Source: Telmatactis stephensoni (Eukaryota > Cnidaria > Anthozoa > Actiniaria > Isophelliidae). Taken from it: a stretch of 64,000 nucleotides of DNA. Positions 8,944 through 40,201 of the stretch are shown here, one piece after another. The translations under genes were made by a program, and so were the position numbers. Numbering within the stretch: the first letter of the stretch is position 1; every line of letters begins with the position of its first letter. The notes beneath the pieces were generated by a model, which had not been told where the DNA came from, ran no database searches, and saw only the letters and a list, made by a program, of their open reading frames with translations. Where the stretch lies: NCBI GenBank assembly GCA_029948255.1, contig JALIZF010001862.1:930001-994000 (forward strand), read 5' to 3'.

Positions 8944-11900
8944 ATGGATTACAGAACTAGTAGTTGTCTGGTAAAGAATTTACCTTTTCACACTCTTTGT
9001 TTGAAGAAGATATTGATGGTTTTGATCATCTGTGCAAGCAGCGTCCATTCAGGTAAGTTCGCAGCAATTTTAGTTCATTATTCGTGAAAACTTAAAAGTG
9101 TAAAGACAAGTTGCTTCAAAAGTTGCTAGATTTACTTGCTGTAAAATTTAAGAAGTTTAGCTATTTCAGAAAATGTGACCTTTAACAACTGAAATTTCGA
9201 TTATTCATTCATTTTGTTTAAAATATGATTAAGCATTGAATTTCTTGATGAATTCTTCGTTTGCACGTTACGTCATAGGTTCAAAAAATTTGAACTAAAA
9301 TTTAATTTCTCGTCCAATCGATTTTGTTCTAAAATATGGTTTAGAAAACTGTGTTTCGAGATAATTTTTGGACTTATATCGACTGGCTTGCATATTCTGG
9401 TCGAGCATATGTTTTATTGAGTGAACAACAATTAATAAGATATTAATAAAACAGTTGACAAAGTAATGGATGCAGTGAGAAAATTAGCTGTCGGACCTGT
9501 CGATTTTACGAAGTACTTTCCATATTATGTTTGCTACTGAAACTGTTTATAGCTTTATTTCTTTTTTTATATTATGGTTTCATAAATCAGTTATATTACA
9601 TTTCCTCTTTTGTAAATTGAAACAGCAGTTATAGAGTACTTCATGAACGTGTGTTGTCGTATATTCTGTTTTGTTTTGTTTTGTTTTTCCTACCATCAGT
9701 TTTTTTTTTCAAATAAGAAAGAAAGAAACTAAGAAAAACAAATAAAAAATGAATGAATGAAGAATGAATGAATGGATGACGGAATGAATGAAAAAGAAAT
9801 AGGAAATATAGTAACAATTTAATTTCCTTTCTTCGTGGTGGTCCACTAGGCATCGAATATTTTCAGACATGTTCTAACACAGATGCTACAGCGAGTCTAG
9901 CAGTCTGCATGAAGTCACGTTGTCTGACAATTTCCCAGTGGCACGACATCATGCTGATTGGCTGATACGGGTACACACACCAGTGATATGAAAATCCTTT
10001 TTTCTCCTTTTAAATAATAAAGATATCACAGAGCAGCCGGTTTGCGGTTGCAAAACGCTATCTGTGGTTGCCTTTGTAGAGAGTCTAAATGGGGTAGTAG
10101 CAATAGCGGTTGATGGTTAAAAATTTCGGTATTTGACGGTTGACGTTAACCGGCTATTAATACGCTCTTTGTAGTGGGGGTTTTAATTTTCATGTATCTC
10201 TACTGGAGCATTTATAAAAGTCTTTCAATCGCAATTCTACTGATCACGCATCTTTTGTTTCAAACTCGTTTTTATTCGGAAATATTAGCATGTATGCTAC
10301 AAGAATCCGAATTTAAACATAAAGTTTATTGTATTATGTAATGTAAAAAGAACGAGAGAGCGTGTTATATCGGTGGATACTAGTATAAAATCGCTCTCGA
10401 CTAATCAAACGTCTAGTTGTTAATTTGACCAGAATTTTCCAAGTCTGACTATCTTTGGCTATCGAAAATCCAAGTTAAAGTTTATGCAAATGAACTAAAA
10501 TCTTTATCCATTGTGTTTTCTAATGAATTATTAATGACTTTGATCAATTGTATAAACATATCTGTCGATTAGCCTTTATGCAATACACGTACGCAGTATG
10601 ACACAAACCTAGATCATCATGATCCCTTTAATCAGACAATTTCATTAAGTACTAAAATCCGAAAAAAAGTTGCAGTAAACACCCTAAAGAATTGAACCTC
10701 TCCTCATGCATTCTTACCACAGGAACCCCGAACTAATATATATCGTTATCATACTTCAAGGGTCCTTATTTAAGAGGGATTGACTTTGCAGCGTTAGCGT
10801 ATTCCATGTTGCTCTATTTATTGGGAAGTACTGTCACTCTTATCGGTAGATGGAAGGGAGGAGGGGATGGGCGCTTGTTCGGGAATGAGCGTTAATCTTA
10901 ATAAGCGCAGTAGAGGAGAAGCGCTAATTTGAAGGAGAGATCTTATTCGAATATTAATAACGGTGTGCTGATTCATATTGATATTTATATTTTTTATAAA
11001 TAAATTTGTAAAGAAGCAAGTGCATCTCAGTTCGTTAGTGCGCGGCTTTCTGATGCGAGAGGTCCCGAGTTCAATTCTCTGTCGGATCACCTCTCACTTG
11101 TTTCGACTTTTTTCCATTCCGTGTAGCTTTAATTAACTTTAAATACCCTTAAAACGGAGCACTGATGGAGAGAGGGGGGTAAAGAGCGCACCGTCGGCTT
11201 CCTGGGAGACCCGCGTTCAGCTGAAGGAACTACCGACACTAAATATAGTGCATATCAGCACATTCGAAAATACTTACATTGATATTTGCGCTTTATAAAT
11301 GAATAAATTATTAAATTATTATTTAATTTAAGCAAGTTTCTAATACATTACATTTAATAAATTTTATATAAATCTAATGCATCAAGGCAGGACTAAACAG
11401 AATTCAATGATTCCATAAAATAATAATTATTATATAGTGCTTTACCTTTTACCTTTACCTCACTCTTTAGGTTCAACGCAGTGTTCATGCTATTCATTTC
11501 ATAGAGACCTTAAACCATGGACCTCAAGTCGAAACTTGTGTGTGGAGAGTGGCGGTGATTTAGTTTCAATGGAAAAAAGAGATGAATGGGAATTCATCAA
11601 AAACCAGACTAGAAGTAGAGCAACTGAGACAAAAGGTCATAATGAATGGTGGATTGGACTTAAGTATAACAAAAGTCAGAAACAGTGGAAGTGGCTTAGT
11701 AATCATAACTTGACCTACAATAAATGGCAACCTCGAAAACCGGAGTTCAAGAACAATTTAGAAAAATACGCCATAATAGCGAAAAACTTTCCACAGGATA
11801 CAGAGGGTCTGTTCAATAACGTGGCTGAAACATTAGAAAGAGGACGAATATGTGAATACCATATTAGTACAAAAGGTAAGAATAAAACTCCATCCATTCA

Positions 11901-14900
11901 TCTATCCACATCCTATTTCACTACTACCAAAAATCTGGCATCTCCATATTTCTAAAACATTTCCTGCTTTTGTTCCTTCTTTTCTCTTCTCTTCTTTTCT
12001 TCTATTTTTTATTTTAATAATCTAATGATAATTTATAGTATGTTTGATCTTTCTCAGTTTGTAGCAATAATAAAGATATATGGTGTTCGGTCCTCCCTAC
12101 CAGCAGTGCTACTACCACTATCACTATTACTGCTACCTCCATAATTCCACACAGTGATGGGCAACATAAGACAACAACCAGAAATACAGCATATGGTTCT
12201 TCAGGTAAAATTGATAATGATGATGGTGATGATAATGATGATGATGATGATAATGATGATGATGATGATGATGATGATGATGGGTGGGATTAAGGATAAT
12301 AGTGATATGCCCACTAGCTAGTGTGCAAAGTGTGCAATATTGACAAGGAATGATAATAAATGATTAGCCAAGAAGCGATTTACCACAACTGATATGCCGC
12401 AGATCAACTAAAATAAAACAACAACAACAAAAATGTATACTATTTCCATGTCATCATTACAGGTTCGCCTTCAGATGACCCTCGTACTTCAGACAAGAAA
12501 CCATTCCCTGTGTACGTGATAATTATAGTCCTCGTGGTTCTCTTGCTGTTTGGTGTTGTGTTAGCTGTCCTTGCTTACAGATTGAAAAGAAAGCGAGGTA
12601 TGTAACAGAAAAAGATGGTTTAATTGTTTGCTATTTGGCTATTTATTTGCTTCTTGTCCAAAAGCCTGCTTCTCTTTTGCTAAAGTGCTGACGGTGAGAA
12701 CCACAGGCTCTTAATGGAGATCGACCAGTACTACAATGGATTCTTGCTCTTGAATCTGATTGGCTATAGCTTTGCGCATGCTCTATGAATATATCTTAAC
12801 CATCCCTATTAGCATCCCCGTACATTTGGAGGTTGTTTTCCTTATCCGAAGTAGCCTGAATATCAGACCCTTGGAGGAGAGGGGAAGGGAAGGGGGGAAG
12901 AGGGGGAAGTAGGAGACGTATCGAGAACGCTGGTTGGGGGAATATAAATGATAACACAGTTGGGACTGTACGATGCTATACTGTACCACGCTAGCAATTT
13001 CAACTGATGAAACAAGACTAAAGTTTTTGCAAGCAGACATTCAGTTTGATGAACACATTCAGTCTAATATTTCCATTTTTCACTTAATTATTTTTGTTTT
13101 TAGAACTAAAGCCAAGAAATAGTCAGTAAGTAATTCTTCTCTTCCTTTCTAAAACTTAAAATTATTTTAAAATAAGAGTATGGTAAATATCTTATACATG
13201 TACGTCCTCTCCAAGTACATGTTTATCGGACTGTGGTGCTTATAAAGTTCAGTTTTGCATCTTCAAATATTCCTTTGTTGCATGTTTGGGCAAACACTGT
13301 AGTCTTGTCGGAAACAAGGAGATATTTGGTTTACTTCTTCCTCTAATTTCTCTTCACTTGGTGGAAGAGAAAAGCCAAGAGAATTAATTTTAGAGCTGTT
13401 AGATCTGTTACTCATAACCTAAATTTGAAAGGAAGATGAAATATTCTATGGGATGATACTTATCATTTAAAAAAAATAAAGGAGCTAAGGCGGTGTTGCA
13501 TGGCGTAATTTTTTCTGCGTCTCATCTCAAAATTGTTGACACAGTACTTTAATTTAAAAAGTCCTAACAGTATATTGAATTTACATTGCATGGCTATTTT
13601 CCGTATCCTACAAACTGTCGGTAAGGTACGGTACCTACTTGAGTATAATTTGATTATGTACTTTTAAAACATATGGACCGAGTAATCCCACTTGTCTACT
13701 CACATGTACAAACTACGAATCACAGATTCCCTTCAGTTGGTTATTTTGGACGCGAGCTCGTGCGCATGCTTGTAGTGAATAAGCGCGTGCACGGACGAGC
13801 AGTGAACAGCGAGTGTGCACGCGTTGTGACAAATTTTCGGCGCGCGTGGTTTACTCCTTTTTTCCCTTAGTGAGTGGTATGGTTATTCTATTCTGACCAA
13901 AAAAGCCTAGATGTATTTTGAATGCCTTTGTGTGTTCCCCCAAAAAATGAGCATCAATGTCAGGATTAAAGTAGGACTAATGCTGCCACACTTGATTCAG
14001 CATGTAAAAGGTGCTTGCATTTGGCCATAAGAAGAAAATCCCTAAATTTTGGCACATGAGCTGCGCTAAAACTCCATGCAAAATTAGATATATTTCGCTG
14101 ACACTGTCAGGAACTTACAGTCGTGCTGACTTAAGAAAAATGTCTTCAGCTCGATTGTTTTCAAACACAATTCACTGATTTCCAACTATTTACATATTTC
14201 TTCCTCAGCTTCAGTAAGAACGCTCGGGTACCAGTCACACTCGAACCTAACTCCACCAAAAACGCAAACGACAAGATTATTTACGCCGATGTCATCAAGA
14301 TGGACGGAGGTAAAATACAGATCAACTGTGATTCTCAATACCAAAAAGGCAGTCAAACTGGTGAAGTGATTATCCCTTACAGTAGTAACGCCATTGTCTC
14401 CAGAAACACAGACAAAAACAAAAAGAACATTCGTCAAGACGAAAAAGTAGAGCAACTAGACTGTAAAACTCCACCAGCAAAAAGAAATTGTCCTGATGTG
14501 AAAAAGACCCGTGAAGCCGCCATTAAGAGAGTCGATAGCGAGAAGGTTCATCTTATGCATGACATGGATGGAGGTCTAGATGAACAAGGCGATTCTACCA
14601 AGTGCTTGTACGAGAATTTACCGCCAAGAAATGAAAACTCAAAGGTTGAGATTGTACAGGATAACGGTGATGCAAGTGAGGTCAGTGGAAATCATTGTTC
14701 CGATTGTCTAGTGCCCATACACCTTTTGAAAAGGAATGGACAGCAAATTTTTCAGTATATATCAGTATAACTCAACGTGAACTCATCGCAACAAAAGCCC
14801 CACTACAGAAAGTCTCATCTTATTTGCCTTTCTCAGTGCATGCATCTACAATATCTCTTAATCAATTGACAATGTGTCAAATTTTTGCAGCAGAATATAA

Positions 14901-15553
14901 AAGCCAATTTGGCAACATTACGCAGATAGCTCAATTCACTGGACGAAAAATTGGATTTGCTATCATTTACAAGGGTAGCAAATGTGGTACAAATATGTTG
15001 TAAACCGAATACAAATCTGGTGAATACCACATTTGTTCATCCCATTTTTCATCCGATTGGCAAATTCGGTATTTACCAGATTTGCATTTGGTTTACAACA
15101 TATTTGCATCACACCAATTTTTCGTCCAGTGAAACTCGTTCAAGATCGAACATTGCGCATCACAGTTTGACGTGCATGTGTAGGCGAGTATGGAAGAATT
15201 CTGAGTTCTGAATAATCTCCACAGTAACAGCGAATTTCACTCTTAATATTGGTCTTGATCTAACGTTCACCAAGCTCATCTCCTCATTAAAGAAAAATCC
15301 ATAGAGTTGAAGTAAGGCAAAGGACGGTAAAGGACGATGAAGCAGAGCTAGGGACATTTCAGGATAATTTTGATTGTATAAATTCGTTCATTATATGAAT
15401 TACATACTGATTTTTGTTCCCAAACAGGAACCAAAGTTACTTTACGTACAGATTTCTGACATCAAAGAATCAGATCCATCCTGTCCGGTTAAGATGCCAA
15501 GCCCTTACAGTGAAACAGACTACGCTGTCATCGTAACTTCCCGCAATGCTTAG
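8944..15553 (+). CDS. R1: type I membrane CTLD receptor with ITIM/ITSM-like tail
   Basis: Seven exons keep phase: 8944-9052, 11471-11875, 12058-12204, 12463-12597, 13104-13125, 14209-14680 and 15428-15553, giving 471 residues. Exon 1 is a signal peptide (MDYRTSSCLV..., hydrophobic ILMVLIIC core). Exon 2 is a C-type lectin-like domain: QCSCYSF, GGDLVSM, EWWIGL, LTYNKWQP, ICEY. Exon 3 is a Thr/Ser/Ile-rich stalk opening VCSNNKDIWC. Exon 4 holds KKPFP, one TM helix and the basic stop RLKRKR. The tail has IIYADV (Tyr298), CLYENL (Tyr407), LLYVQI (Tyr436) and TDYAVI (Tyr462). The CTLD lacks EPN/QPD and WND sugar-binding motifs, so a protein ligand is as likely as glycan. It is the most divergent paralogue. 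The 14680 donor (GTCAGT) is the least certain junction. Confidence 0.85.
10339..10546 (+). mobile_element. Internally deleted copy of the ATAACACGCTCTC hairpin element
   Basis: The segment matches the repeats at 30498-30790 and 33134-33426: AACGAGAGAGCGTGTTATAT, AATCAAACGTCTAGTTGT, AAATCCAAGTTAAAGTTTAT and TAATGAATTATTAATGA occur in the same order. It lacks most of the central hairpin. Confidence 0.75.
11020..11335 (+). mobile_element. tRNA-derived SINE-like element
   Basis: The 5' part has an A-box-like TCAGTTCGTTAGTGCG and a B-box-like CCCGAGTTCAATTCT. The 3' part (CGTCGGCTTCCTGGGAGACC... GAAGGAACTACCGACACTAA) recurs inverted near 60840-60895, and the tail is AT-rich. This fits a SINE in R1 intron 1. 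Confidence 0.55.
12226..12284. repeat. (GAT)n microsatellite in R1 intron
   Basis: Nearly pure GAT repeats lie just downstream of the R1 stalk exon donor at 12204. Confidence 0.9.
14936..15132. mobile_element. MITE-like inverted repeat in R1 intron 6
   Basis: Outer arms TCACTGGACGAAAAATTGG and CCAATTTTTCGTCCAGTGA are exact inverted copies. An inner pair (AATATGTTGTAAACCGAATAC / GTTTACAACATAT) extends the palindrome. It lies between the last two R1 exons. Confidence 0.8.
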
Positions 15554-18710: not shown

Positions 18711-18798
18711 GAATTTTACCTCGTGATATCGTGAAAGGAAAAACATATAACCATACAAGCTAACGTAACTATGCTGTCTAACTTCAACTAATAACAAA

Positions 18799-18933: not shown

Positions 18934-21420
18934 ATGGAGCAGTTTAAGATTAATACCGTGGTAGCAATATTTTTTGTGTTAACATCTGTGTCGTCGTCAG
19001 GTATGTAAAAACTTTCAACAAATCGCTTGAATACAGGAATACAGGAAAACACATTAACGTGCTGATCATGAAACACTCAATATAGCTGTATCATTTTCGC
19101 ATTCTAGCCGGTTTATTGAAATCCTTTAAAATGATTTGTAAATTGGAAATGGTAATGAGCAAAATCTCCGTTTTACGAGTGGTTAACATTTTATTTGGTG
19201 TCTGTGTTATATACTTTACTTGTTAGGGGAGGGAGAGTGGATGGACTACGCGGAGGCAAGTATTATCAACGTATTAAATTCAATCATTTTTTCCTATTTA
19301 TTATTTTTCATTTTATGTTAAGATGCACCACAGCACTGCACTTGCTACACGTTCTATGGTAACTCTAGTAACTGGAAAAACAGTAGAAGTCTGTGTCAAG
19401 CTAACGGAGGTGATTTGGTATCAATAGAAACCTTAGAAGAATGGAAATTTATTAGCAAACAAATCCAATCTAAGACTACTGAAACTGGTCAGAATCAGTG
19501 GTGGATTGGATTGGTGAGAACAAATGGAGAATGGAAATGGCTGAGTAATCTAACCTTGACTTATGGTAACAAATGGGAACCAGGCCTAGATATAAACCGA
19601 AACCATTATTCATATGCTGTGATAGACAAGAGCAAGGGATTATTCTGGAACGTAATAAAAAGCGTAGAAAGCGGAAAAATCTGTGAATACAAAGGAAAAG
19701 GTTAGACCATACTATAGTAAGAATTAGATTGATAGACCCATCCCATAAAACATTAAGTACTATAACAGCTTAATGAATTATGGTAAAGTAATGTATGGCA
19801 TTTTTTCAAATCCATAGCTTGCACAAACAATCAAGTACTGAAATGGTGCAAGAAAATATCCCCACCACCCTTCAGTACCTTACCCACACAGCACGCTACA
19901 GGAGGCAGCAAGACAAAAACAACTCCATTTTCAGGCAAGTGGTCGAGAATACCAACATTCCACGAGTTTCATCCCCTATCATTTCCATAACCTCTTTGTA
20001 CTCTCCTACTTATAGTGTATTATTGTTCGTAAAACCGTAACTACCATTTTCCTATTTCCCCCATACTCATTCTTACAGTCGATTATACTAAATTCGATAT
20101 TTGACATAATCGACAGTTTTAGTCAAAGTAGATTGCTTTGACGTCTTCAGTAATAAAGATACGACGGTATCTGCTATATATGGAGACTTTAAAATAAAGA
20201 TAGGCGAAGTAAGAGAACATTTTCTTACTTAGTCATACTGGTGCGCACTTCAATGTAGACTGACATACAGTTGCGCGCACTAATATCCATGACAGAAAGA
20301 AATCGTTTTTACAAGCGATTCCTTTACGGAAATTAGGACAGGGCCGTATACAGCACAGGGTCAGAGGGGGCGGTTGCCTATCCTAATAAGGAAAGAAACA
20401 GATACTCTCTATATCTAAATATTCCCCGTGACGAAGGAACTGAAATATTACCGACTGTCCCCCTGTCCAATGAATTTGGGCTATGTACGACCCTGCAGGG
20501 CAGAGCATGTTGCATTTTTGGCAGTGTCTAATATGCTGAAAATCAATCAATCATTAACTAAATTCGATTCTACAAGAATCAATTGAGAATGAATCACAGG
20601 GGATGACAATTGAATTGTGCCAAAAAAGGCTGATATCACATTCCACAATAGAATAACCTGTGTAGCCTGCCCTAAGGGGAGGAGGAGGAAAGAGAAAGGG
20701 GAGGGGGAATGGAGCGAGGAGGAAGGAAGGTACTAGCCTCATTCGCTCTCCCATTTCCCTTTCCCATCTCCCTTGTCTCCTCTCCTTAGGGCCAGCAAAC
20801 ACGTGTTAATGGAATGGTGTCCAGTCTCAATGTTCGGGACATCACAATACAATAGCTTGAAACAACCGTTTTCAAATTTTATTCGGACGCTGGATGAAAT
20901 ACAAGTCATCCAGATGAATCTAGCCTGCAAAGCTGTAGTTCTTTTTGTGGTGTGGATTGGAGATTTGGGATTCCCGTGGAGAAAATATGGACGCGCGAGG
21001 ACTAGAGCTTAGCAAGAGCGGGGACAGCAGGGGAGGGGAGAAAGGAGTTTCCTTTCTTTCCTTCTTCTCTCATCCTCCTTTCTCCCCTATAAACAAAGAA
21101 CGCCTGCTTTGCGGGCCAAGATAACTCATTTCACTTAAGGTAAATCTTTTTCTTAAGAAAGAAACATGTAGGTTGTACAATAGGTAGTTATACAGATAGC
21201 TAAGGCAAGATACAACTATAGTAAAGTAGTATGTAGACACTCATTATTCATTCTTATTGCTTACATATATCCAAAGAATTTTCTTTCAGGGAAATCGACT
21301 TCTTGGTACTGCAATAACAAGGTTGTCAAAACTAATTACCACTTAATTGAAATCTCTACCATGAAGTGTAACGGTGTAACGTCCAACGGGTATCTATGGC
21401 TAAACCTCGATGTCACTTAA
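18934..21420 (+). CDS. R2: predicted secreted CTLD protein (no TM or tail)
   Basis: Three exons, 18934-19000, 19323-19700 and 21290-21420, give 191 residues. Exon 1 encodes a signal peptide (MEQFKINTVVAIFFVLTS); I chose this Met by analogy with R3 although an upstream in-frame ATG exists at 18817. Exon 2 is a CTLD nearly identical to that of R3 (HCTCYTF, GGDLVSI, QWWIGL, KWEPGLD, ICEY). Exon 3 joins in phase 1 (GKSTSWYC...) and stops after 43 residues. It has no hydrophobic segment and lacks the first cysteine of the stalk C-x7-C pair. I find no TM or tail exon before R3. The exon-2 donor is GTTAGA, a weak consensus, so a read-through or decaying copy is the alternative. Tail-less products could act as soluble decoys; that is inference. 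Confidence 0.65.
20339..20495. mobile_element. hAT-like MITE (weak)
   Basis: The ends CAGGGCCGTATACAG and GTACGACCCTG are imperfect inverted copies beginning CAGGG, as in hAT-type elements. No clean target-site duplication is visible. It lies in R2 intron 2. Confidence 0.4.
20662..20798. mobile_element. Purine/pyrimidine-rich inverted repeat
   Basis: GCCTGCCCTAAGGGGAGGAGG at the left is mirrored by CTCCTCTCCTTAGGGCCAGC at the right, around G/A-rich then C/T-rich arms. It sits in R2 intron 2. A second, weaker element (GCCTGCAAAGC ... GCTTTGCGGGCC) follows at about 20921-21118. Confidence 0.5.
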
Positions 21421-25300: not shown

Positions 25301-25923
25301 AATATGCACAAATGAGCAAACAAGAGGACTCAAAAACTATCGGCACAGAAAATGGAGCTGTTATCAAAGAGGTGACGGAAGTGGGGACTGAAATGGAAGA
25401 CAAAAGTAAGGACAACCCCAACAAGCTTCTAGCAAACCAAAAGAAACCACGGACATGCTATACTGATCATGAGGAATTCGAAGATGAAGTCTTTTATCCC
25501 GAACAGAACGAGATACAACAAAACCAAGCACCACAAGACTCTCTAGACCAGGAGGATGGTTTGAATGACAAGACAACGGCTCTTTACGCTACAATTGATA
25601 AGTCGAAGAAAGAACCTCCTCAACATTTGTATGCAGAAGTCGACAATGTTAAGCAAGTAAGTAAAGTCGTATTATATGTTCTTGTTAGTATAGGTAATCT
25701 ACGGTTTCTCGTTCAATTTGGAATTAATTCGCACGAGTGTGTTTTTCGAAGAGTATCAAAATTGCACGAGTCCGTAGGGCGGGTTGGCCTTACTAATGAG
25801 AGGGACCGGTCGTAAGGCGGAGTTCTACTTTATTGAAAATTAATTATTGATCATTCTCTGTTGATACCTTAGTAAACCGCAACGCAAAAAAGACTGGATT
25901 CTGTTAGTACGTTTAGTATAAAA

Positions 25924-26018
<95 letters not shown>

Positions 26019-26894
26019 ATGAATGAATGAATGAATGAATGAATGAATGAATGAATGAATGAATGAATGAATGAATAAATAAATAAATGTATTTGTTTAT
26101 ACAGGCCGAGTTTTGCAGCTTAGCGCTGTTGTCGGCCTGTTTTCTCTCACACTCACTACCTCTACATTAAATTATTTTGCAAACATTGCTCATCTCACAT
26201 GTTGATTTTTGCTGCATGAGGGAGGGAAAACCAGAGTACCCGGAGAAAAACCCTCGTGGCATGGTCGAGAACAACACATCAAACAAACTCATGCAATTTA
26301 CTTATGATCTCAGTGAGCGCTCGAGCTGGAACTCGAACCCGGACCACAGCCAGTGAAAAGCCGGTTCTCTCACCAATCGCCCGACCATGCCACCCAAAAT
26401 ATCACTCGTCCGTAGTGATTTGTTTAAGTAAGACGCTCGTTTAGGCGTTTACTCGGCGGGTTTTCGACCAGCCTCCACGAATGAGCGTGTATGCATTTTG
26501 TGACGGAAGAAAAAAAAACTGTATATTATGATTCTGCCGCCAGCCGAGTAATAAGATGCTCACTAGAAGAAATGTAAACTGAAGCACACATATGAATATG
26601 AATAAATATGTTGATATAAATCTATACAAGATAATTTCAAATAGAAAATTGAAAATGTCGAAGTCAATGAAGAAAATTAGAAGAAGTAAAACTGAATAAT
26701 ATTTTGCATGAACAGCATTTTCATGTATATTTCTATGTTTGTAGGGAGATCAATCCAAGGACCTAACTTACGCAGAGATTACAGATTTTCAATCAAATCC
26801 ATCAGAACCCGTCAAAAAGCCAACGCCCTACTACCCAACGGAATATGCCACCGTCACGGTTCATCCGCTTAGTCCCAGGCCATTTGAAAGATGA
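22374..26894 (+). CDS. R3: type I membrane CTLD receptor with ITIM/ITSM-like tail
   Basis: Seven exons, 22374-22446, 23005-23388, 23961-24128, 24290-24424, 24724-24748, 25116-25656 and 26745-26894, give 491 residues. Order: signal peptide (MTRQSKIDIVVAVVALGLMV); CTLD at about 27-150 (HCSCYTF, QWWIGL, KWEPGLD, FWNV, ICE); Thr-rich stalk opening ECPQYQIKWC; KKPFP, one TM helix (about 224-247, no charged residue inside) and RKSKR; then a 240-residue acidic tail. The tail has TPEYAQM (a YxxM type), ALYATI (Tyr419), HLYAEV (Tyr434), LTYAEI (Tyr451, ITIM form) and TEYATV (Tyr476, ITSM form). The extracellular and TM exons are all phase 1-1. Uncharged TM plus ITIM/ITSM suggests an inhibitory receptor that recruits SH2-domain phosphatases; this is inferred from the motifs. 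Confidence 0.9.
23615..23845. repeat. (ATTC)n/(GTTC)n/(GAAA)n simple repeats with tRNA-like fragment
   Basis: Tetranucleotide runs at about 23615-23790 are followed by a segment whose minus strand reads GATAGCTCAGTTGGTAAAGC, a tRNA A-box-like SINE head. It is in R3 intron 2 and noncoding. Confidence 0.75.
24838..25050. mobile_element. MITE-like inverted repeat in R3 intron 5
   Basis: CGATAACTTTACGGACCCG on the left and GTCCATAAAGTTATCAGG on the right form inverted arms, with CTCGAAAAC at both outer edges. A related fragment (GGGTCCGTAAAGTTTTCGCC) lies in R5 near 39858. Confidence 0.55.
25918..26398 (-). mobile_element. tRNA-derived SINE with (AAAT/GAAT)n tail
   Basis: On the minus strand the element starts near 26398 with TGGCATGGTCGGGCGATTGG (A-box-like). 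It continues through CCGGGTTCGAGTTCCA (B-box-like) and ends in a long tetranucleotide tail (25918-26095). This is standard SINE order. It lies in R3 intron 6, between the tail exon and the last exon. Confidence 0.75.
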
Positions 26895-28286: not shown

Positions 28287-31200
28287 ATGGCTTTGTGTTA
28301 TTACTTGGTGATGTTTGTACTTGCCTTTAAACAAGTACAAGGTAAGATAGTAATGGGTTAAGTACCGATAACCATGTGGGATGAACGAACAAGAGATGAG
28401 AAATAATAATAATCATTAATGATAATAATAATCTATTTTTCCTTTCCACTTCTTCCCCCAATTTACCGCCCCCTCTACCCTTTTAGGTCTCACATTGCTA
28501 AATACTAAAAATCCCAACCAACGAACAATCCCCAAAAGAAACGCTTGGAGCGCAGGCAAGAAAATTGCAATCATGTTATTGATTTTATTGAAAATAAAAT
28601 GTCCATGGTTTTAACAACAAAGGCCATGCCACTAACAGGATAAACTGGTGCTCATCAGATCTCCCCAATTTTTATATGCATAATCTTTTTATATGCATGA
28701 ATATGCAACAGGGAAAATCAGCGATGACTGCCCTGATTTGTCACAGTCTCTTGGTCAGGGCTGCTCTGTGAACAGTGACTGCACCAAGATCACATGCACT
28801 CCAAAACCAGCGGAGAAAAACTTGACATGGACAATCACGATCAATGGCTGTAAAAAAACAGTCTCCGTCGATGTCTCTGTTAAAGAAGAAAACGTAGCTC
28901 AGTGGTCGAACAGATTTACGTCAGATGAGTGGCGTGCGAACGTTTCTGGTTTGTCAATCAAAACGAACATGACTCAACATGACGTTTTTGTAAAGGTTAA
29001 TGTATCAGATCTTCATATGAAGGTAATGATAAACTTAAGTAACAATGCGCGTAAAATTGAAAGTAGCTAGGCAACTCCCCATTGTTCCGAGCATTTCACT
29101 TTCCCTATATAAGAATGGTTGGATTTTCAGGCTGAGAATACATCAACCTATGAACAAAAAACATGTTATTGAAATAAAATGCACTAAAACTCTATTTAAC
29201 TGGGAAGTTTCTTTTGTGTGAAAAGCTTTCATCATGAGATTCCAAAACAACAGCCAAGAAAAGCTTCCAATTTTCCAAGTTCCCCACATAGAATTTTTGT
29301 TTCATTAAATTAAAACTCACAAAATTTTTAACAGAGAGAAAATCTACTAGTGAACTTGGTAGGAATTAATGTAATATCTGATAAAGATATGTTTGATTTT
29401 CATGTTTTAGCCAATGAGATGGACGGATTAAACATAAAATTACCACCTTTCTGCATTCCGTGCATTAGTGATGCCTACCTCTTACTCGGACCATTACTTA
29501 ATAGCAGGGACACATGCATGGCAGCTGCGTAACGTAAAGGATGAGCTGAACCTTCACCCAAATCCCGAGTTGAGGTATATGCTGCCATTTGTAAGCTGCA
29601 AACGCATGTGCCAATGAATAGGGTTTATTTTTGCCCTTATAAGGTATCTTTTTGCACCTTTTGAATCTCTTTAAGCCATGCTTGTTTATTTCTTTATTTA
29701 TCTATTTATTTTTAGGTTGTACTTGAGATTGATGAAGATACCACACTGGTTAATGGTACCTTACCATCCTATCAATGTGGTAATTATGATGATATAGATA
29801 TGTGTAGAGCAACCTACACAGGTGTGCCGGTTCGGCCATTGCTACTGATGATTACAGGGGCGGATCCAGGGAAGGGTGCACCCAGGATTATTTTTCATGG
29901 GAGGGGGTCCAGCGTTATAGAAATTGGAAACTATGGAGAGGATATTTTGGAAAAATATAGAGAAGAAAAGGGCCCAAAGTCATCTCAGGAGGGGGTGCAC
30001 ACCCTTGTACCCCTCCCCTAAATCCGCCCCTGGATTATGCATACAAATGAAATCAATTCAGGTTATTCCAAATATAACCTAGATAAAGATAAATGCTTCG
30101 CATACTGCCCGACAAACTTAAATAAATCAAAAGCTTCAGATTTTGATAAACTCTTTCTCAAACAACTAAAAGGAAAAAGAAACAGGAAAAATATTAAGGC
30201 TAGAAGTATTTTTTCCGGCAACATAGATGAAGTAGTACGATGTGACGAATGTCCAAAGAGTTGTTGTCATGCGCGAAGACTGTCTGGTCCAATCACAGAC
30301 TGAGTCTAATTAAACTCCACACAGTTATGAGATTTATAAATTTAAACAAGAAAGGAAGATTGGAGATAGGAGACATAGGACGATAATTGGCGAGGACATC
30401 AGGATCGAGGGATTTCTTCTTGAGGACAGGCGTCATCAATGCATACTTTAGTTGTTCAGTTTATCAGGAACAAGAACAACTGAAGCATTCGTTTTATTTA
30501 TCAAACTCATTAATAATTCATTAGAAAACACAATGGAAATCACTACCGTAACGTAGATCTTTATATCGGATAAAGATTTTTGTTCATTTGCATAAACTTT
30601 AACTTGGATTTGCTAAGCCAAAAGTAGTCAAACTTGGAAAATTCTGGTCCAATATGATAATTGACAACTAGACGTTTGATAAGTAATATAAAGAACTCGA
30701 GAGCGTGTTATATCGGGTCTAAAGATCCTCGCCTTCGGCTCGGATCTTTATCCACCGATATAACACGCTCTCTCGTTCTTTATACATTACGTAATGTATA
30801 AAGTAAATCTCGCGAAGTAAATCTCTCTAAAAGTTTGTCGACTTAAAAGATTTAAGAAAATAAAATTCAAAGCGCGAAGTATACTTTGTCGTGGCCCAGT
30901 AGAAAAAGGGCTCATTTAATATTGAAAAGAGTAAAGTGAATACTAAGATCGTACACCATTGTTATCATGTTTCAGAAAAAGACTTTAGACCGGAAAAGAA
31001 ACCTTTTCCTGTCCTGATATTGGCTATTCCATTAGTTATTATACTATTGGCATGTATTGGTGTTCTTATCGTAGTCTGGATACGAAAGTCAAAACGACGA
31101 GGTACCATTGATATGTTACGTTCACAGTATACTATACTGAAATACTGGTTTACTGAGTATATATGCACGAGTAACAATTTGCTTAACTGTGAAAGCTCTT

Positions 31201-31871
31201 ACCCCGGGTAGGGTAACGTCACGGAGCCGGGGGATGGAGGGAGTTACCCCGGTTAGGATAAAGACAGAGGGCGGCGCGGGAGGAGGGGGGGGGGGGGGGG
31301 GAGGGGGGGGAATTGAAGAGGATATGTGTTGGGCAAGGTTGATGTTCATCCTAACTCTCATTATTGAATAACAATGGAGCTGAGCTTCCATGTAGAATTA
31401 ATTGCCTAAAAATCAAAAAGTTTTCAATAAAATAACGATCAACGAGTATTGTTTCTGTCAACATTTTTACCATTGTAGGTACAAACAGAACAAGTCACCA
31501 AAGGTACGTTTGCACAATAATAAATTAAACCAAATTTTCATATGTTTCCCTCGTTCAGCTTATATAATATATTGACATAACCGCAGGTATTTTCGAACCG
31601 CTCATGTTACATATATATAATCATGCTAGCCAATTTGCTAGCCGACAAAGATATATTCACTTACATTACACGTACCGGTCAGTTCTTCTTTAGCGAGCTA
31701 CCATTTTTAAAATAAACCCTGGGTAACCCGAAATCATGGTAATACAACAACATTATTTGTCTCTCTGATTAGTAGAGTACTAGTGCCCGGCTATAAGATT
31801 TTGAGACGTTAATAAAGTTATTATCATCATCACCATCATCATCATCATCATCATCGTCGTCGTCGTCATCA

Positions 31872-31920
<49 letters not shown>

Positions 31921-33702
31921 CAGAGATGGTATCAAAATTAATAATAAAGATATGAATCACTTTGTTTTTAACGTTTTTTCTACGACAGGAAAGAATCCGA
32001 TAGTGTCTTTGATGTTCCTTTAAGCGTTCGATGCATGTATGATCAATATCCACATGAAGACCAGAACGAGCGCAATGTTGCACAAACACAAGAGGAGCCT
32101 ACGAAAAGCATGGCTACGACAGAGCATCACGCAGATAAGCTGGCTCAAAAGGATGCAGTAGTGGATATGCTTCAAGAACTAAAAACACCAGAGTGTGCAC
32201 AAATGAACAAACAATGGGAAGCAAAAACTACAAAAAACACTGGCGCAGAATATCTGATAACACCAGAGTATGCACGTGCACTATTAAGTGAACAAAGAGA
32301 TAAAAAAACTCCAGGCGCTGAAAATGGAGCTGTTATCAAAGAGGTGACGGAAGTGGGGACTGAAATGGAAGACAAAAGTAAGGACAACCCAAACAAGCTT
32401 CTAGCAAACCAAAAGAAACCACAGACATGCTATACTGATCATGAGGAATTCGAAGATGAAGTCTTTTATCCCGAACAGAACGAGATACAACAAAACCAAG
32501 CACCACAAGACTCTCTAGACCAGGAGGATGGTTTGAATGACAAGACAACGGCTCTTTACGCTACAATTGATGAGTCGAAGAAGAAAGAACATCAATATTT
32601 GTATCCAGGAGCCGACGATGTTAAGAATGTAAGTATACCCACATTCCCGGGGGGGGGGGGGGAGGGGATTTCGATCGGAAATGGGCGTGGATGGCGGTAC
32701 CTTTTAGGGTGTTTTTCGGTAAATAAAATACCTAAAATAAGCCGCATTACTGGGACGATTTTAATGATCTGACTTTTGTCTCTTGAGCACATCGATAAAG
32801 GAGATTTTATGTTTTGGATTCTTCAATTTTTGTTTTTGGATTGGACCAGGTACCTTTTAGGGCTAGAAATCAATTGTTGCTACTCCCCCCAAGATAATAC
32901 TCAGGTACCTTTAAGGGATCATTTTCGAAATTTCCGACGAGCATCCCCGCCCTCTTATATACAGGAGTCCCCCCACCTCTGGGCCCACATTATTGTAGAA
33001 GTTCCAATGAAAATATTTGTCTGGATCTTCTTGGCTGGCGTTCATGTTTGTGTATGTAATATTTGTATGTAGAGTACGGCTGACCTGTGGACGCCAAAAA
33101 TAACTTGCCGTGATAACAGCGTGGTCGTATTAAGTAATGTATAAAGAACGAGAGAGCGTGTTATATCGGTGGATAAAGATCCGAGCCGAAGGCGAGGATC
33201 TTTAGACCCGATATAACACGCTCTCGAGTTCTTTATATTACTTATCAAACGTCTAGTTGTCAATTATCATATTGGACCAGAATTTTCCAAGTTTGACTAC
33301 TTTTGGCTTAGAAAATCCAAGTTAAAGTTTATGCAAATGAACAAAAATCTTTATCCGATATAAAGATCTACGTTACGGTAGTGATTTCCATTGTGTTTTC
33401 TAATGAATTATTAATGAGTTTGATAAAGATTATTAAAGATTTAATTTTTACAAGTGCGATCAACTATTTACTGGGTCCGAAGAAGACGACGTAGAAAAAT
33501 AAATGATATTTTGATGAACACCATTTTCATGTGTGATCAATATTTTTGTTTGCAGGGAGATCAACCCGAGTGCGTAACATACACAGAAGTTACGTTCCAA
33601 TCAAATCCACCAAAACCCGTCAAAAAGCCAACGCCCTACTACCCGACGGAATATGCCACCGTCACGGTTCATCCGCTTAGTCCGAGACGAGATGGAAAAT
33701 GA
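28287..33702 (+). CDS. R4: type I membrane receptor with a non-CTLD Cys-containing ectodomain and an R3-like tail
   Basis: The proposed exons are 28287-28341, 28712-29022, 29716-29821, 30976-31101, 31479-31503, 31989-32628 and 33556-33702, giving 469 residues in continuous phase. The signal peptide MALCYYLVMFVLAFKQVQ is followed by a module with DDCPDLSQSLGQGCSVNSDC, CTKITC and WTITINGC, then EIDEDTTLVNGTLPSYQCG; it has no CTLD features. The TM exon (EKKPFP, uncharged helix, RKSKRR) and tail match R3. Tail motifs are TPEYARAL, ALYATI (Tyr398), VTYTEV (Tyr430) and TEYATV (Tyr454). The R3 TPEYAQM tyrosine is Cys here, and HLYAEV has become YLYPGA. The 29821 donor (GTGTGC) is weak: the reading frame runs on past it and is broken by a MITE, so the ectodomain may be longer or the gene partly damaged. 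Confidence 0.65.
29335..29532 (+). other. Possible alternative terminal exon of R4
   Basis: After a good acceptor (TTTTTAACAG), a 66-codon frame including the stop is in the phase needed to follow the R4 exon ending at 29022. It encodes RENLLVNLVGINV..., including FCIPC, and ends in TAA. Used as a last exon it would give a secreted ectodomain. Equally, it may be chance intron sequence. Confidence 0.25.
29855..30032. mobile_element. 178-bp MITE with CAGGGGCGGAT termini
   Basis: The ends CAGGGGCGGATCCAGG and TAAATCCGCCCCTG are inverted copies, of a form typical of hAT-type nonautonomous elements. The 5-bp direct repeat GATTA flanks it. Element plus one repeat is 183 bp, so the reading frame on both sides (29800 onward and 30037-30303) stays in register, and the stop near 30019-30021 lies inside the element. 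Confidence 0.8.
30037..30303 (+). pseudogene. Cys-containing coding remnant beyond the MITE in R4
   Basis: An 88-codon frame encodes KYNLDKDKCFAYCPTN, a basic segment (KGKRNRKNIKAR) and RCDECPKSCCHARR, ending in TGA. It is in register with the frame that runs past the R4 donor at 29821 and is separated from it only by the MITE. It may be the former C-terminal part of the R4 ectodomain, now excluded, or an alternative 3' end. I recognise no family. Confidence 0.4.
30498..30790 (-). mobile_element. 293-bp hairpin element, inverted copy A
   Basis: It contains GAGAGCGTGTTATATCGG and its inverse CCGATATAACACGCTCTC around GGATC-rich hairpin sequence. Its reverse complement matches 33134-33426 almost base for base. 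It lies upstream of the R4 TM exon. Confidence 0.85.
31284..31312. repeat. Poly-G tract in R4 intron
   Basis: A run of almost uninterrupted G, broken by single A residues, follows GCGCGGGAGG between the R4 TM exon and the small juxtamembrane exon. It could form G-quadruplex structure. A shorter G-run at about 32649-32661 follows the R4 tail exon donor. Confidence 0.85.
31818..31921. repeat. (ATC)n(GTC)n(ATT)n compound microsatellite
   Basis: Trinucleotide runs in the R4 intron just before the tail exon at 31989. The reverse-strand poly-Asn/Asp frame here is a simple-repeat artefact. Confidence 0.9.
33134..33426 (+). mobile_element. 293-bp hairpin element, inverted copy B
   Basis: Near-identical reverse complement of 30498-30790. 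It lies in the last R4 intron, so the two copies bracket the R4 TM and tail exons as a 2.3-kb inverted-repeat-flanked cassette. Confidence 0.85.
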
Positions 33703-35451: not shown

Positions 35452-36367
35452 ATATGATGGGTCACGGGAATTCCTTCTATTACCTCATTTTCTCTTGGTT
35501 CCATTCATCATCAGACAATTTAATAAAAGTATTTTTAACGATAAACCAATTCTTGTGGAACTTGGGTGGAGAGATTGTTTCTTCATAACGTCATCCAAAC
35601 CTGACCTTGGGAAATCAAGAAATTAAAATATAAGTAAATTTCTCGAAATTACGAATTTTTGATTAAAAAAACTTTTTCTATGGTTGTAATTGATAATAAA
35701 AACATGTTCAATTCTTGTTGTCACAACATTAACTGTACGATATTGCGTGACACTTTCTCTTTACATTAATCGCGTGACAAGGTTTCATAGCGTGAAACAT
35801 TGCTTATTTTGACTTACTAGCTGTCTGTAACACAATAAACTAATAAAAGACAAATAAATTTTAAAATATATTCACATTGTTGTAGGTTTCCAACGTGCAG
35901 AAAGACGCAGAAATCTAAAATCTCCGCAAACCTTTGTTCAGGCTTTTGTTCTTGGTGAGCTTCGTTCTATTGTATAACGGATCAGAGTCTCTGTTGTTTC
36001 TATTGAATCACGTATGCTGTGACCGGTACGTGCAGAAAGAACCAGATTTCTTGAGGATTTGGTCACCAACCGCAACCATTCAAAAGATGGTGCTGGTAGG
36101 TTAATCGGTGTTTACCTTTTAGTCTGATTCAACTGACTGCATCTAATGTAAATTCACTTTAACACACTTTGAAAGTCAAGCATTTTGACATTTATTAGCG
36201 TGCTCACGTGGTCACACTGTACTCCAAGGTGACAGCCTCCTCAACCAGACTCGGCCAGACTGAACAGGATTTTCGGCCCGAAAAACTGGAGCTATTGTAT
36301 GCTGAATGTTTTCTCGGTGTAGCTTCTTCATAAACAATGTTCAATTGACTGACTTGGTTTTTGACCG

Positions 36368-37120
36368 ATGGCAATGAAGTATTTCATCCACGAGCGTCAG
36401 TTTATCTTTATTCTGGCTTGGTATCTACTTTTGGCATCGATAGTGTCTGGTATGTAGTTTATTAGTCTTGTCTAAATGCCGTTTCGCTTTTGAACTGTGG
36501 TGCATTTACTACTCTTCTTGTTTTTCTAAGGTTCAGAATCATTGCAGTGTTCGTGCTACACATTCCGTGCTAATGTCAGTGACTGGGATGACAGCAGGAA
36601 GATTTGTAGATCGAATGGCGGTGACTTAGTCTCAATGGAAACATTATCTGAATGGCAATTCATAAGAACACAGTTAAAAGAGAGAAAAACGTCCTCTAGT
36701 CAAGATCAGTGGTGGACTGGTCTTGTGAGAGAGAATGGAGTCTGGCAATGGTCGAATGGCTATAACCTGACTTATGACAAATGGCAGCCAGGATTAGATA
36801 TATATAAAAATCAAAAAAAGCACGCCATTATGGAAAAGAATGGGGGAATATTCTGGAGTCTGTATTGGTATCAAAAAATGGGGAGTATTTGTGAATACAC
36901 TGGTTCAGGTATGTTCGTAATGAACTCTTCAGTAAGATGACATTTTAATGACTATAACTTACAGTTTATAAATATAAGACTTGTATGTGTCAGCCAAATA
37001 TAGCGTTGCGTGACAGTTATTACAACCTAAGATTGCGTGACATCACTCAGCCTTGTAGTATAAAGATATGTATGGCTTCAAACGCATGTGATACCAGCTA
37101 GGCGGATGCATGGATTGAGC

Positions 37121-37170
<50 letters not shown>

Positions 37171-40100
37171 ACATAAGCATTATAAATATTTTGATCGTCT
37201 TATAAATAGCCGGAGTGATATCTGTTAGTTATAGAAAGGTAGCTCTTCGGTTCATAGAGGTTTCCGATGTGAGGAATATATTTTTTTGTACAACTTCTAC
37301 AGTTTGTAAAGGACTACAAGTCAAGTGGTGCTACAATATGACAACAACCAGCCGCCCTACCACAATATTGCGTCACACTACCACAATACAAGATGTCACG
37401 CCAAGTCTAATTACATTGGAACTAACCGCCAGCGTTACCAGTACAGTGCAGACATCAACAATAACGATGACTACTAACAGTTCTGCTGAAGGTATGCGTA
37501 GAAGAATTACAATGAGTTCAAGAGAAAAAAAAAAGAATGAAGGAAGGAAGACACTAGAACCCGGAGTAGTGAAGACAAAGAGTATGAAGAAAGAAAGGAA
37601 GAAACGGGTGAAAGGGAAAGGGAAGGAAAGGCAAAAGCGAAAAATCGGTTTGACGACACGACGGGGAAAGTCGGGGAACGAGAGACAGTGAATAAAGCGG
37701 ACAGAGAACGAGCAGACCGAGAAGCCAGGGAAAGAGAATTGGAATTGGCATTGGAAGGACGGGAGTTTAGACGGTTAGTAAGTAAGGGGCGAAAGAAAAA
37801 CGGCGGGACAGGAGAGACGGAAAGACAGTAAGAGAAATGGAGGGGGGTATAAAGGAGAAATCAGAAAATCTGAGGGCATCGGCATCGTTTCATATTTAAA
37901 ATGATTTATGTCATATAGACAGCAATGAAAGAACAAGCAGAATCACTGAAAAGCCATTTCCTGTGCTGATTGTCATTATCGTTCTTGTCATCCTATTGGT
38001 TGGTATTGGCATAGTCATCATTGTATGTATCTATAGAAAGAAACGGAAACGCAAAGGTAATCTTGCACTACCCCTTATTATAAATGCACTACCCCCTATT
38101 ATAAAAGCCCTAACGCCTATTGTATATGCACTACCCCCTATTATAAATGCACTACCCCTATTATAAATGCACTACCCCCTATTATAAATGCACTACCTCC
38201 TATTATAAATGCACTAACCCCTATTATAAATGCACTACCCCCTATTATAAATGCACTACCCACTATTATAAATACACTATCCCCTATTATAAATGCACTA
38301 CCCACTATTATAAATGCACTACCCACTATTATAAATGCACTACCCACTATTATAAATGCACTACCCCCTATTATAAATGCACTACCCCCTATTATAAATG
38401 CACCACCCCCTATTATAAATGCACTACCCCCTATTATAAATGCACTACCCACTATTATAAATGCACTACCCCCTATTATAAATGCACTACCCCCTATTAT
38501 AAATGCACTACCCCCTATTATAAATGCATTACCCCCTATTATAAATGCACTACCCACTATTATAAATGCACTACCCCCTATTATAAATGCACTACCCACT
38601 ATTATAAATGCACTACCCCCTATTATAAATGCACTACCCCTATTATAAATGCACTACCCCTATTATAAATGCACTACCCACTATTATAAATGCACTACCC
38701 ACTATATCAATTATGCCCGAGGGATGAAATGGATAAGGAGTATTTGAGATGTGCCCGTCGTAAAATGACATCCAAAACTGTGAAATCCTGGGATCGAGAT
38801 TGAAGGCCATGAAATATAAAAAAGCGAGCTATCCCTAGCCTCTTGCACAAGACGGGGTTTATCAGTGCTGTCGGTCCGCCCTATAAAAAGTAAAATCAGG
38901 AAAAAATGTGTATCATGCATATATTAGCGGAAATACAGTCGATACTGAGTATTTACCCGACAGCTATCCTGCTTAGCTGACACCACTTGGAGAAGGGGAC
39001 TGGGAAAACGAGGGGGGAGCACGTAGCGGGACTACTTTCCCTTTCCTTTCCCTTTTCTTTCCCTTTCCTCTTTTCTCTCCCGCGTCCCTTCTTTGGACCA
39101 GATACACAGGTTACCTATAGGGCGGACCGACAGCACTGATAAACCCCGTCTTGTGCAAGAGGCTAGGGATAGCTCGCTTTTTTTATAATTTATGGCCTTC
39201 AATCTCGATCCCAGGACTTGGCCTCGCCCTAGAAGGCTATATGGCCTTCTATTTCGATTTTATTAGCACAGGCTAAAATGTATCGTTCTTTTTTCATTAA
39301 TTTGATTCAATTATTCTTGGCTTGTCTTACAGATAATAACCAAGGATGTCATGCAGAGTAAGTGATTCTCTCGTTTATCAGTTTATGGTCTCTGTTTAAA
39401 TATCGTATATATGATTGACCTTTTATCGTTATTTTTAAAATGATTGTGTTTATACAGAGCAGCTGTGGAACAAGAAAAAGAACAGTTCCTGCTCAATCCC
39501 TTTTATGGGGAAAATTATGAAGAAAATTCCTCCCCAGCAAAACCTTACATTTACGCAACCGTCGACAAATCCAAAAAGACTAAACAAGTGGCAAATGAAC
39601 CTCATTATGCAGAAATAAACAACAGCGAAAAAGTAAGAATACTATGTTTTTAACGTTGTAAAAGTGAGTTCAAAATGAGCGTTAGAAGCATTTTTTTCCT
39701 CGGCCAATCGTAACATCCCAACCCCAACCCGGTCGGGCGAGCAGTGGCGCGCGGATAAATCCTAACAAGCTGCACAAATTCACTTGACGTTGATTGATTC
39801 AAAGGAACGTTTATGGGTGCTCGCATAATCTCGCAACTCTTTCTGTAAGATATATAGGGTCCGTAAAGTTTTCGCCGAGTCTTTCGACAAACGGGCCACT
39901 GATAGTTTCTTACCCTGTAACACGTCCGCCATTTTATTACTTGGCCAGAAACACAGGGTGACCAGTAACTAAACTCTTACCTAGTTTCTGAAACTGAGAA
40001 CTTGTTGAAATACAGATAACCATCGACCTCCCACAACACTACAATCCAGCGCTTATAACTTTATCTTGTTTACAGACAAATGAGGCTCAACCAGAAGAAC

Positions 40101-40201
40101 TAAATTACGCTGAGCTGACCAATTTCACAACAGATGATTCACAGCCAATTACAAAGCCACCACCTTATCAGCCTACTGAATATGCTACTGTTAATGTGTA
40201 A
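36368..40201 (+). CDS. R5: type I membrane CTLD receptor with compact ITIM/ITSM-like tail
   Basis: Seven exons, 36368-36449, 36531-36908, 37303-37491, 37919-38056, 39333-39357, 39458-39632 and 40076-40201, give 370 residues. Order: signal peptide (MAMKYFIHERQFIFILAWYL); CTLD (QCSCYTF, GGDLVSM, QWWTGL, WQPGLD, ICEY); Thr-rich stalk opening VCKGLQVKWC; EKPFP, an aliphatic TM helix and RKKRKRK; then a 117-residue tail shorter than in R3/R4. Tail motifs are YIYATV (Tyr303), HYAEIN (Tyr321), LNYAEL (Tyr340, ITIM form) and TEYATV (Tyr365, ITSM form, four residues from the C-terminus). Exon phases match R1 and R3. WWTGL replaces WWIGL. A second Met two codons downstream could also start. The intron after the TM exon holds a large minisatellite and a foldback element. 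Confidence 0.9.
37119..37172. repeat. (CAA)n microsatellite in R5 intron
   Basis: About sixteen near-perfect CAA units between the R5 CTLD and stalk exons. Confidence 0.95.
38065..38709. repeat. 21-bp minisatellite, about 30 copies, beside an R5 splice donor
   Basis: The unit is GCACTACCCCCTATTATAAAT with small variants (CCCACTATT, CCCCTATT). The array starts nine bases after the TM exon ends at 38056. Open frames on both strands across it are products of the 21-bp period and are not genes. Confidence 0.95.
38786..39216. mobile_element. Foldback element in R5 intron 4
   Basis: The left arm from TCCTGGGATCGAGATTGAAG through GAGCTATCCCTAGCCTCTTG to CAGTGCTGTCGGTCCGCCCT recurs as a near-perfect inverted copy ending CTTCAATCTCGATCCCAGGA. 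The unique loop is about 230 bp. Confidence 0.85.

Follow-up and report, generated by a model that had tools for sequence, protein, structure and literature searches.

The lectin receptors of the natural killer (NK) complex (Ly49, CD94/NKG2A, Clec12a) are type II proteins with an N-terminal tail and a C-terminal C-type lectin domain (CTLD). In PD-1 of jawed vertebrates, as described in the excerpts cited here, an immunoreceptor tyrosine-based inhibitory motif (ITIM) of the form (I/V)(D/E)YG(E/V)L(D/E)F at Y223 is followed 25 residues later by an immunoreceptor tyrosine-based switch motif (ITSM) of the form (T/V)EYATIx(F/Y) at Y248 (PMC12151841), and both tyrosine motifs are bound by the SH2 domains of SHP-2 (PMC12151841, PMC7078208). 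ITIM-type motifs are already in print for cnidarians, in the immunoglobulin superfamily (IgSF) Alr genes of Hydractinia (PMC12065747). Among the titles and abstract openings listed from the open-licence literature, none concerned type I lectin receptors in which an ITIM and an ITSM are held at a fixed distance. Here we describe a tandem cluster of five genes, G1 to G5, in a 64-kb window (C73:930001-994000, the whole stretch analyzed) within the 484-Mb genome of the sea anemone Telmatactis stephensoni, which probably encodes single-pass type I inhibitory-type receptors whose exon-encoded tail would dock SHP-2 in a PD-1-like geometry.

Seven cnidarian copies of this tail were compared with PD-1: those of the four tailed genes of the window (G1, G3, G4, and G5), one from Actinia tenebrosa, and two from elsewhere in the Telmatactis genome (contigs C2 and C33). 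In all seven, an ITIM-type tyrosine is followed by an ITSM-type tyrosine 24-26 residues away, compared to 25 in PD-1; the second motif is TEYATV in three window genes against (T/V)EYATI, and six of the seven copies have a phenylalanine five or six residues beyond the first tyrosine, where PD-1 has one at +5. The tailed window genes also share the type I topology of PD-1, and SHP-2 is present in the genome. Unlike the single IgV domain of PD-1, however, the cnidarian ectodomain is a CTLD (Lectin_C in G1, G3, and G5), a G4 domain with no family match over cut-off, or several Ig/FN3 domains, and the tails carry an extra conserved PxPY motif and a long additional tail exon. Membership of the PD-1/CD28 family was rejected because no IgV domain is present, and the likeness of the tail to that of PD-1 is regarded here as a functional analogy.

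The NK-complex inhibitory lectin receptors share a CTLD, an ITIM-type motif, and clustered tandem genes with the window, and a parallel with Ly49 had been drawn in an earlier reading of this DNA made from its letters (the sequence-only reading). The motif half of that parallel stands, whereas the topology is reversed: the NK-complex receptors are type II, and the window genes run from signal peptide through N-terminal CTLD and transmembrane (TM) segment to C-terminal tail, for which reason they were rejected as NK-complex receptors. By this comparison, the better functional analogue for the tail is PD-1. Hydractinia Alr and Botryllus FcoR genes, as far as the cited excerpt describes them, resemble the window in being invertebrate multigene receptor clusters with ITIM-type tails and haplotype differences, but their ectodomains are IgSF and FcoR tails are of ITIM or hemITAM type (PMC12065747); no IgSF-like ectodomain was found in the window genes.

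Gene structures of the cluster

Exons were modeled by combining open frames and splice sites with comparisons among paralogues, and the models were set against the second haplotype of the one animal sequenced (haplotype B, contig C748), in which the window region lies in reverse orientation. Between the two, 17 of the 21 aligned blocks longer than 400 bases are 95-99% identical and the other four 87-94%, and the haplotypes differ by about 1-6% in the region of the tailed genes. The models are as follows, with positions counted from the start of the window and lengths in amino acids (aa) or nucleotides (nt):

8944..40201, + strand: five-gene cluster G1-G5, from open frames, splice sites, and paralogue comparison
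8944..15553, + strand: G1, predicted type I CTLD receptor, 471 aa; open GT-AG chain; Lectin_C 48.1 bits
G1 exons, + strand: 8944-9052 signal peptide; 11471-11875 CTLD; 12058-12204 CTLD end and stalk; 12463-12597 TM; 13104-13125 microexon (22 nt); 14209-14680 tail (IIYADV, CLYENL); 15428-15553 last exon (LLYVQI ... TDYAVI, stop)
18934..19934, + strand: G2, CTLD gene without recognizable TM or tail; Lectin_C match
G2 exons, + strand: 18934-19000 signal peptide; 19323-19700 CTLD; 19818-19934 stalk, with GC donor CAG/GCAAGT
22374..26894, + strand: G3, predicted type I CTLD receptor, 491 aa; open GT-AG chain; Lectin_C 48.7 bits
G3 exons, + strand: 22374-22446; 23005-23388 CTLD; 23961-24128; 24290-24424 TM; 24724-24748 microexon (25 nt); 25116-25656 tail (LYATID, LYAEV); 26745-26894 last exon (LTYAEI ... 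PTPYYPTEYATV, stop)
28287..33702, + strand: G4, 469 aa, with G3-like TM, microexon, and tail exons and an ectodomain without family match; open chain
G4 exons, + strand: 28287-28341; 28712-29022; 29716-29821; 30976-31101 TM; 31479-31503 microexon; 31989-32628 tail (LYATID); 33556-33702 last exon (VTYTEV ... PTPYYPTEYATV, stop)
36374..40201, + strand: G5, predicted type I CTLD receptor, 368 aa; open GT-AG chain; Lectin_C 43.9 bits
G5 exons, + strand: 36374-36449; 36531-36908 CTLD; 37303-37491; 37919-38056 TM; 39333-39357 microexon (25 nt); 39458-39632 tail (IYATVD, HYAEI); 40076-40201 last exon (LNYAEL ... PPPYQPTEYATV, stop)

The predicted chains of G1, G3, G4, and G5 read without interruption from ATG to stop, use GT-AG sites, and comprise seven exons each, in the order signal peptide, ectodomain, uncharged TM, 22-25 nt microexon, tail exon, and last exon. 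Their final four exons (TM, microexon, tail, and last) are equivalent across the four genes and separated by introns of phases 1, 2, 0; the exon-end phases read 1,1,1,1,2,0 in G1, G3, and G5 and 1,0,1,1,2,0 in G4. Lifted to C748, the exons of all four tailed genes keep open frames and internal GT-AG sites. The sequence-only reading had described TM helices that lack charged residues and are followed by basic stops, and TM segments of this kind with Arg/Lys runs directly after them were seen by eye on the models. Its five same-strand genes of matching layout are borne out as open chains in four cases and not in G2, which has no recognizable TM or tail, and a CTLD is predicted to be joined to TM and tail exons in three of the four tailed genes (G1, G3, and G5), the two ectodomain exons of G4 having no Pfam match over cut-off. 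The weakest sites in G1 are the tail donor, TGAG/gtcagt, and the 22-nt microexon, which was positioned by splice-site search only; the G4 ectodomain exons are among the weakest exon calls of the cluster. An open frame at 30022-30303 within G4 was excluded as an exon because it lacks good splice sites. The G5 intron after the TM exon is repetitive at 38061-38668, with PIINAL/YYKCTT repeats in several frames and haplotype gaps nearby.

Haplotype B carries one additional CTLD copy between G1 and G2 (C748, CTLD at 102970-103338), in which CAGGCAAGT follows the stalk as in G2, with CAG/GCAAGT in both stalk exons. Matches to the TM and tail exons were sought up to G3 in both haplotypes for G2, and also for the extra copy, and none was found for either, so that both were rejected as tailed receptors. 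In the region after G2, polyA-like signals lie at 20152 and 20193. When the window haplotype was scanned there for hydrophobic segments, a single one was returned, at 20905, unlike the TM of the family. G2 and the extra copy may encode soluble lectins, or they may be spliced into the G3 TM exon, with which G2 is phase-compatible (1 to 1).

The CTLDs of G1, G2, G3, and G5 score 43.9-48.7 bits against the Pfam Lectin_C model (cut-off 22.6 bits), and by this match the four genes are members of the CTLD superfamily. A PDB search with the G3 CTLD gave 109 matched sequences with the PLA2 receptor at the top, and we take the best 60 of the 109, going by their names, to be C-type-lectin-fold proteins; a structure model of the same domain was too poor (mean pLDDT, the model's own confidence score, 41) to serve in fold searching. 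The two G4 ectodomain exons matched no Pfam family over cut-off, and the main one had no PDB match at E ≤ 1; a Cadherin-like assignment was rejected at 18.4 bits against a cut-off of 24.2. Calcium-dependent carbohydrate-binding CTLDs carry canonical EPN or QPD motifs plus WND. By eye, the window CTLDs instead have EPG/QPx and FWNV/FNNV/FWSL at these sites, and the inner cysteine pair is absent from those of G1, G3, and G5. Since neither the sugar motifs nor the inner cysteine pair is canonical, the ligand is more likely a protein or cell-surface structure than a sugar bound through calcium.

The tail exon, its homologues and its reuse

The last exon of each tailed gene encodes [LV]xYxx[IVL], then PxPY, then T[ED]YAx[VI], and the motifs that the sequence-only reading had named for four tails were all found in these modules:

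15437..15532, + strand: G1 ITIM-PSPY-ITSM module, Tyr-Tyr distance 26; LLYVQI 15437-15454, TDYAVI 15515-15532
26763..26855, + strand: G3 ITIM-PTPY-ITSM module, Tyr-Tyr distance 25; LTYAEI 26763-26780, TEYATV 26838-26855
33574..33663, + strand: G4 ITIM-PTPY-ITSM module, Tyr-Tyr distance 24; VTYTEV 33574-33591, TEYATV 33646-33663
40100..40192, + strand: G5 ITIM-PPPY-ITSM module, Tyr-Tyr distance 25; LNYAEL 40100-40117, TEYATV 40175-40192

The tail behind the single TM thus holds both (S/I/V/L)xYxx(I/V/L) and TxYxx(V/I), and together with the tyrosine motifs of the preceding exon (listed above) every window tail has 3-4 Yxx[IVL] sites. Six aligned last exons (the four window genes, Actinia, and C2) keep both motif tyrosines and PxPY without exception, and the C33 copy, which lies outside this alignment, has PTAY in place of PxPY. 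None of the 21 pairwise last-exon scores among the seven copies was reached by more than 1 of 1000 shuffles. Resemblance is less clear among the YATVDKSKK-type ends of the exon before it, with Actinia against contig C105 reached by 167 of 1000 shuffles and other pairs by 0-7. When composition shuffles of five tails (four window tails and Actinia) were used as a chance test, an ITIM with an ITSM 20-30 residues downstream of it arose in 0.015-0.095% of shuffles per tail, while a lone ITSM was nearly unremarkable (P 0.03-0.09). Motif conservation across genes is, on these comparisons, the stronger evidence for the tail pair than the shuffle test. Substitutions in the last exon indicate constraint: between haplotypes, that of G1 has six base differences and one amino-acid difference (dN 0.010, dS 0.213, the nonsynonymous and synonymous divergences), and between G3 and G5 dN is 0.31 with dS saturated at about 2.2. 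None of the five tails contains a strict immunoreceptor tyrosine-based activation motif (ITAM); G3 comes near with YATI-x11-YAEV, in which the last ITAM position is V.

A homologue was found in Actinia tenebrosa (P0001; E 2.8e-34, 37% identity over 49% of G5), named "cell wall protein DAN4-like isoform X2" in its source record. Like the window genes, it has a CTLD, a Thr-rich stalk, a TM segment, and a tail with VTYAEL and PPPYQPTEYASV; unlike them, it has Cys at the tyrosine of the YATVDKSKK-type motif, and a signal peptide is not evident in this isoform. The sequence-only reading had proposed an invertebrate receptor cluster with ITIM/ITSM-type tails and named loss of the motifs in relatives as what would overturn it. 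In the one relative in which this was checked, a single predicted protein joins CTLD, TM, and tail and keeps both motifs, which agrees with the proposal. A PDB search with the G3 last exon returned no match.

A genome search with the G3 last exon recovered, for both haplotypes, all four window genes, plus one weak match on contig C2 (E 0.6). This match lies in a further CTLD gene, which has a TM exon, ALYASVDKKKK, and ITYADL ... PPPYQSVEYAAI, in which V replaces T in the second motif (VEYAAI). The C2 last exon as query gave weak matches on C33 and C664 (E 0.5 and 0.6), of which C33 (726001-738500) holds an Ig/FN3 gene, its domains scoring as high as 79 bits (Ig_3) and 52 bits (fn3), in which a TM exon, YAAVDLSKK, YAVVDKAKK, and IIYAELADF ... 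STDYADI were read. In both genes, the joining of exons is inferred from order and strand. The tail is found here on a second kind of ectodomain, and in these models it is an exon cassette, a YATVDKSKK-type exon plus an ITIM-PxPY-ITSM last exon, that the window genes share with the C2 CTLD gene and the C33 Ig/FN3 gene.

With the G3 CTLD as query, at least 27 genome matches were obtained at E ≤ 1e-6 (both haplotypes counted, best candidates scored), comprising the window cluster, a cluster on C105/C478, and more distant ones. The C105 paralogues (22001-44000, minus strand) have TM exons of their own and tyrosine-rich tails of other kinds, and one open tail frame of 575 aa holds an in-frame array of 23 TGYATVDK-type units of the form [DE]T[GEA][YC]A[TAS][VI]D[KE], with Cys for Tyr in 1 of the 23. 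The other haplotype of C105, contig C478 (99001-101800), has eight such units in an open 459-aa frame. Repeat number would alter the count of docking sites, if the units are used and the assembled arrays are right. Elsewhere, contig C260 holds dozens of matches to protein tyrosine phosphatase (PTP) domains at about 42-267 kb, with strong CTLD matches interleaved at 176-200 kb, possibly a CTLD-linked receptor phosphatase expansion.

Proposed SHP-2 docking and rival explanations

A tandem-SH2 phosphatase that would match ITIM/ITSM-type tails is present in the genome. The SHP-2 orthologue lies at C3:1973647-1984091, with SH2 exons at 1973647, 1977236, 1977942, and 1978539 and PTP exons downstream at 1982592 and 1983945, on one strand and in order. 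The first and the second SH2 domain, each assembled from joined pieces, match SHP-2 (PTPN11) best (E 1.7e-68 and 9.8e-54), with SHP-1 behind (E 1.4e-49 and 9.8e-41), and both contain LVR. In the mechanism that we favor, the N-terminal domain (a CTLD in G1, G3, and G5 and another domain in G4) would bind a ligand, probably a protein or cell-surface structure, and a Src-type kinase would then phosphorylate the tail. Cytosolic SHP-2 would dock through its SH2 domains on the ITIM- and ITSM-type tyrosines 24-26 residues apart and, switched on by docking, would dampen a nearby activating receptor, giving a checkpoint-like inhibition.

Several observations weigh against inhibitory docking of SHP-2. 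SHP-2 is a positive regulator too in growth-factor signaling, so that docking need not equal inhibition. A lone ITIM is unremarkable in the shuffled tails (expected 0.11-0.37, P 0.05-0.28), the last exons of the younger pair G3-G4 show weak constraint (dN 0.14, dS 0.24), and 8 of the 12 haplotype differences in G1 fall in the tail, outside the motifs. The Actinia protein is the only homologue found in the protein database, and so the motifs are kept in a single homologue outside the genome itself; a profile search of all proteins gave 6080 candidates with none at E ≤ 0.001 and missed the Actinia protein too, so that it was insensitive, and a protein search with the tail only gave 11 candidates with none at E ≤ 10. 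For PD-1 in cells, the cited excerpt describes Y248 alone as indispensable and Y223 as dispensable, and a joined pITIM-pITSM peptide as activating SHP-2 only at about 1000 times the concentration needed with a double pITSM peptide (PMC7078208), so that conserved spacing need not mean one tail filling both SH2 domains; either mode of SHP-2 docking would fit the analogy. The role of TEY-type ITSMs as switches has itself been doubted (PMC12151841, excerpt).

The tails could instead be general activating phosphotyrosine scaffolds, on growth, adhesion, or activating immune receptors, that recruit SHP-2 as a positive regulator of Ras/MAPK signaling or other SH2 proteins. The only orthologue traced is of SHP-2 type, the window tails carry 3-4 Yxx[IVL] sites with the ITAM near miss in G3, and the C105 paralogues have different tyrosine-rich tails, all of which would suit a scaffold, but what is conserved from gene to gene is the ITIM/ITSM pair including its -2 and +3 residues and strict ITAMs are absent from the five tails tested, and we consider this explanation unlikely. 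A role of the motifs as trafficking signals (YxxPhi for AP-2, PPxY for Nedd4-type ligases, NPxY), in endocytic lectin receptors for microbes, food, or symbionts, would account for YATV, YAEI, and similar motifs, which fit YxxPhi, for PPPY in G5, Actinia, and C2, and for NPFY in G5 of the window haplotype. It appears quite improbable given that AP-2 has no need of the conserved -2 residue, T/V-E/D before the second tyrosine, or 24-26 distance, that NPFY is NTFY in the other haplotype, and that PPPY is PTPY, PSPY, or PTAY elsewhere. That the exon chains are annotation artefacts, pseudogene exons that are never joined, is highly improbable: the models come from DNA alone, G2 has no tail, and the microexons were positioned by splice-site rules, but all four tailed genes remain open in both haplotypes, which are about 1-6% apart here, and the predicted Actinia protein joins CTLD, TM, and both motifs.

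The remaining alternative is an allorecognition locus, in which polymorphic ectodomains would read haplotype identity and ITIM tails would set tolerance, as proposed for the Hydractinia Alr and Botryllus fester co-receptors. It draws on G3, where the CTLD exon differs between haplotypes at 9.1% of bases and the measured stalk stretch at 3.9%, compared to no differences in the TM, microexon, and last exons and one base in the 541-base tail exon, and on the extra CTLD copy of haplotype B. All 25 amino-acid differences between the G3 alleles lie at residues 6-194, before the TM at about residue 219, with one in the signal peptide (residue 6), 24 in the ectodomain, and none from the TM on. Against it, the CTLDs differ between haplotypes by no residue in G1, one in G5, and four in G2, the G4 protein is identical, and some non-coding sequence is as divergent, with one 300-base block of the intron after the G3 CTLD exon at 9.0% (neighbors at 3-4%) and blocks elsewhere reaching 11%. 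Diversifying selection was rejected as a conclusion from the G3 CTLD (dN 0.086, dS 0.154, dN/dS about 0.56), since an old allele or gene conversion explains these values without it. Haplotype diversity in this animal is real but concentrated in the G3 ectodomain and the one extra CTLD copy, and because the G1 and G5 CTLDs and all of G4 hardly differ, allorecognition is, in our judgment, rather improbable. Inhibitory-type receptors whose tail would dock SHP-2 are the reading that we consider probable for the cluster.

Neighboring features and possible meaning

Two further features of the window lie beyond the cluster:

43535-46534, minus strand: one uninterrupted 999-aa reading frame, its start resembling a signal peptide; no Pfam family exceeded its cut-off (LprI scored 14.5 bits against 22)
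58637-60582, + strand: PAN-like exon scoring below cut-off, then two exons that match TLDc (one at 45 bits, the other at 20 bits, below cut-off)

Taken further, the cassette may be an anthozoan, portable PD-1-type docking tail joined to unrelated ectodomains (CTLD, the G4 domain, and Ig/FN3) to give a checkpoint-like repertoire, with the 23 and 8 TGYATVDK-type units of the C105/C478 haplotypes acting as a dial for signal strength; we advance this tentatively, as somewhat doubtful. If the tail does dock SHP-2, the bipartite tail of PD-1 would be pre-bilaterian in origin or would have evolved independently with the same geometry, and this brake would be far older, or easier to evolve, than assumed. 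The cluster would then provide a concrete set of receptors for how anthozoans restrain immunity towards symbionts or neighbors.

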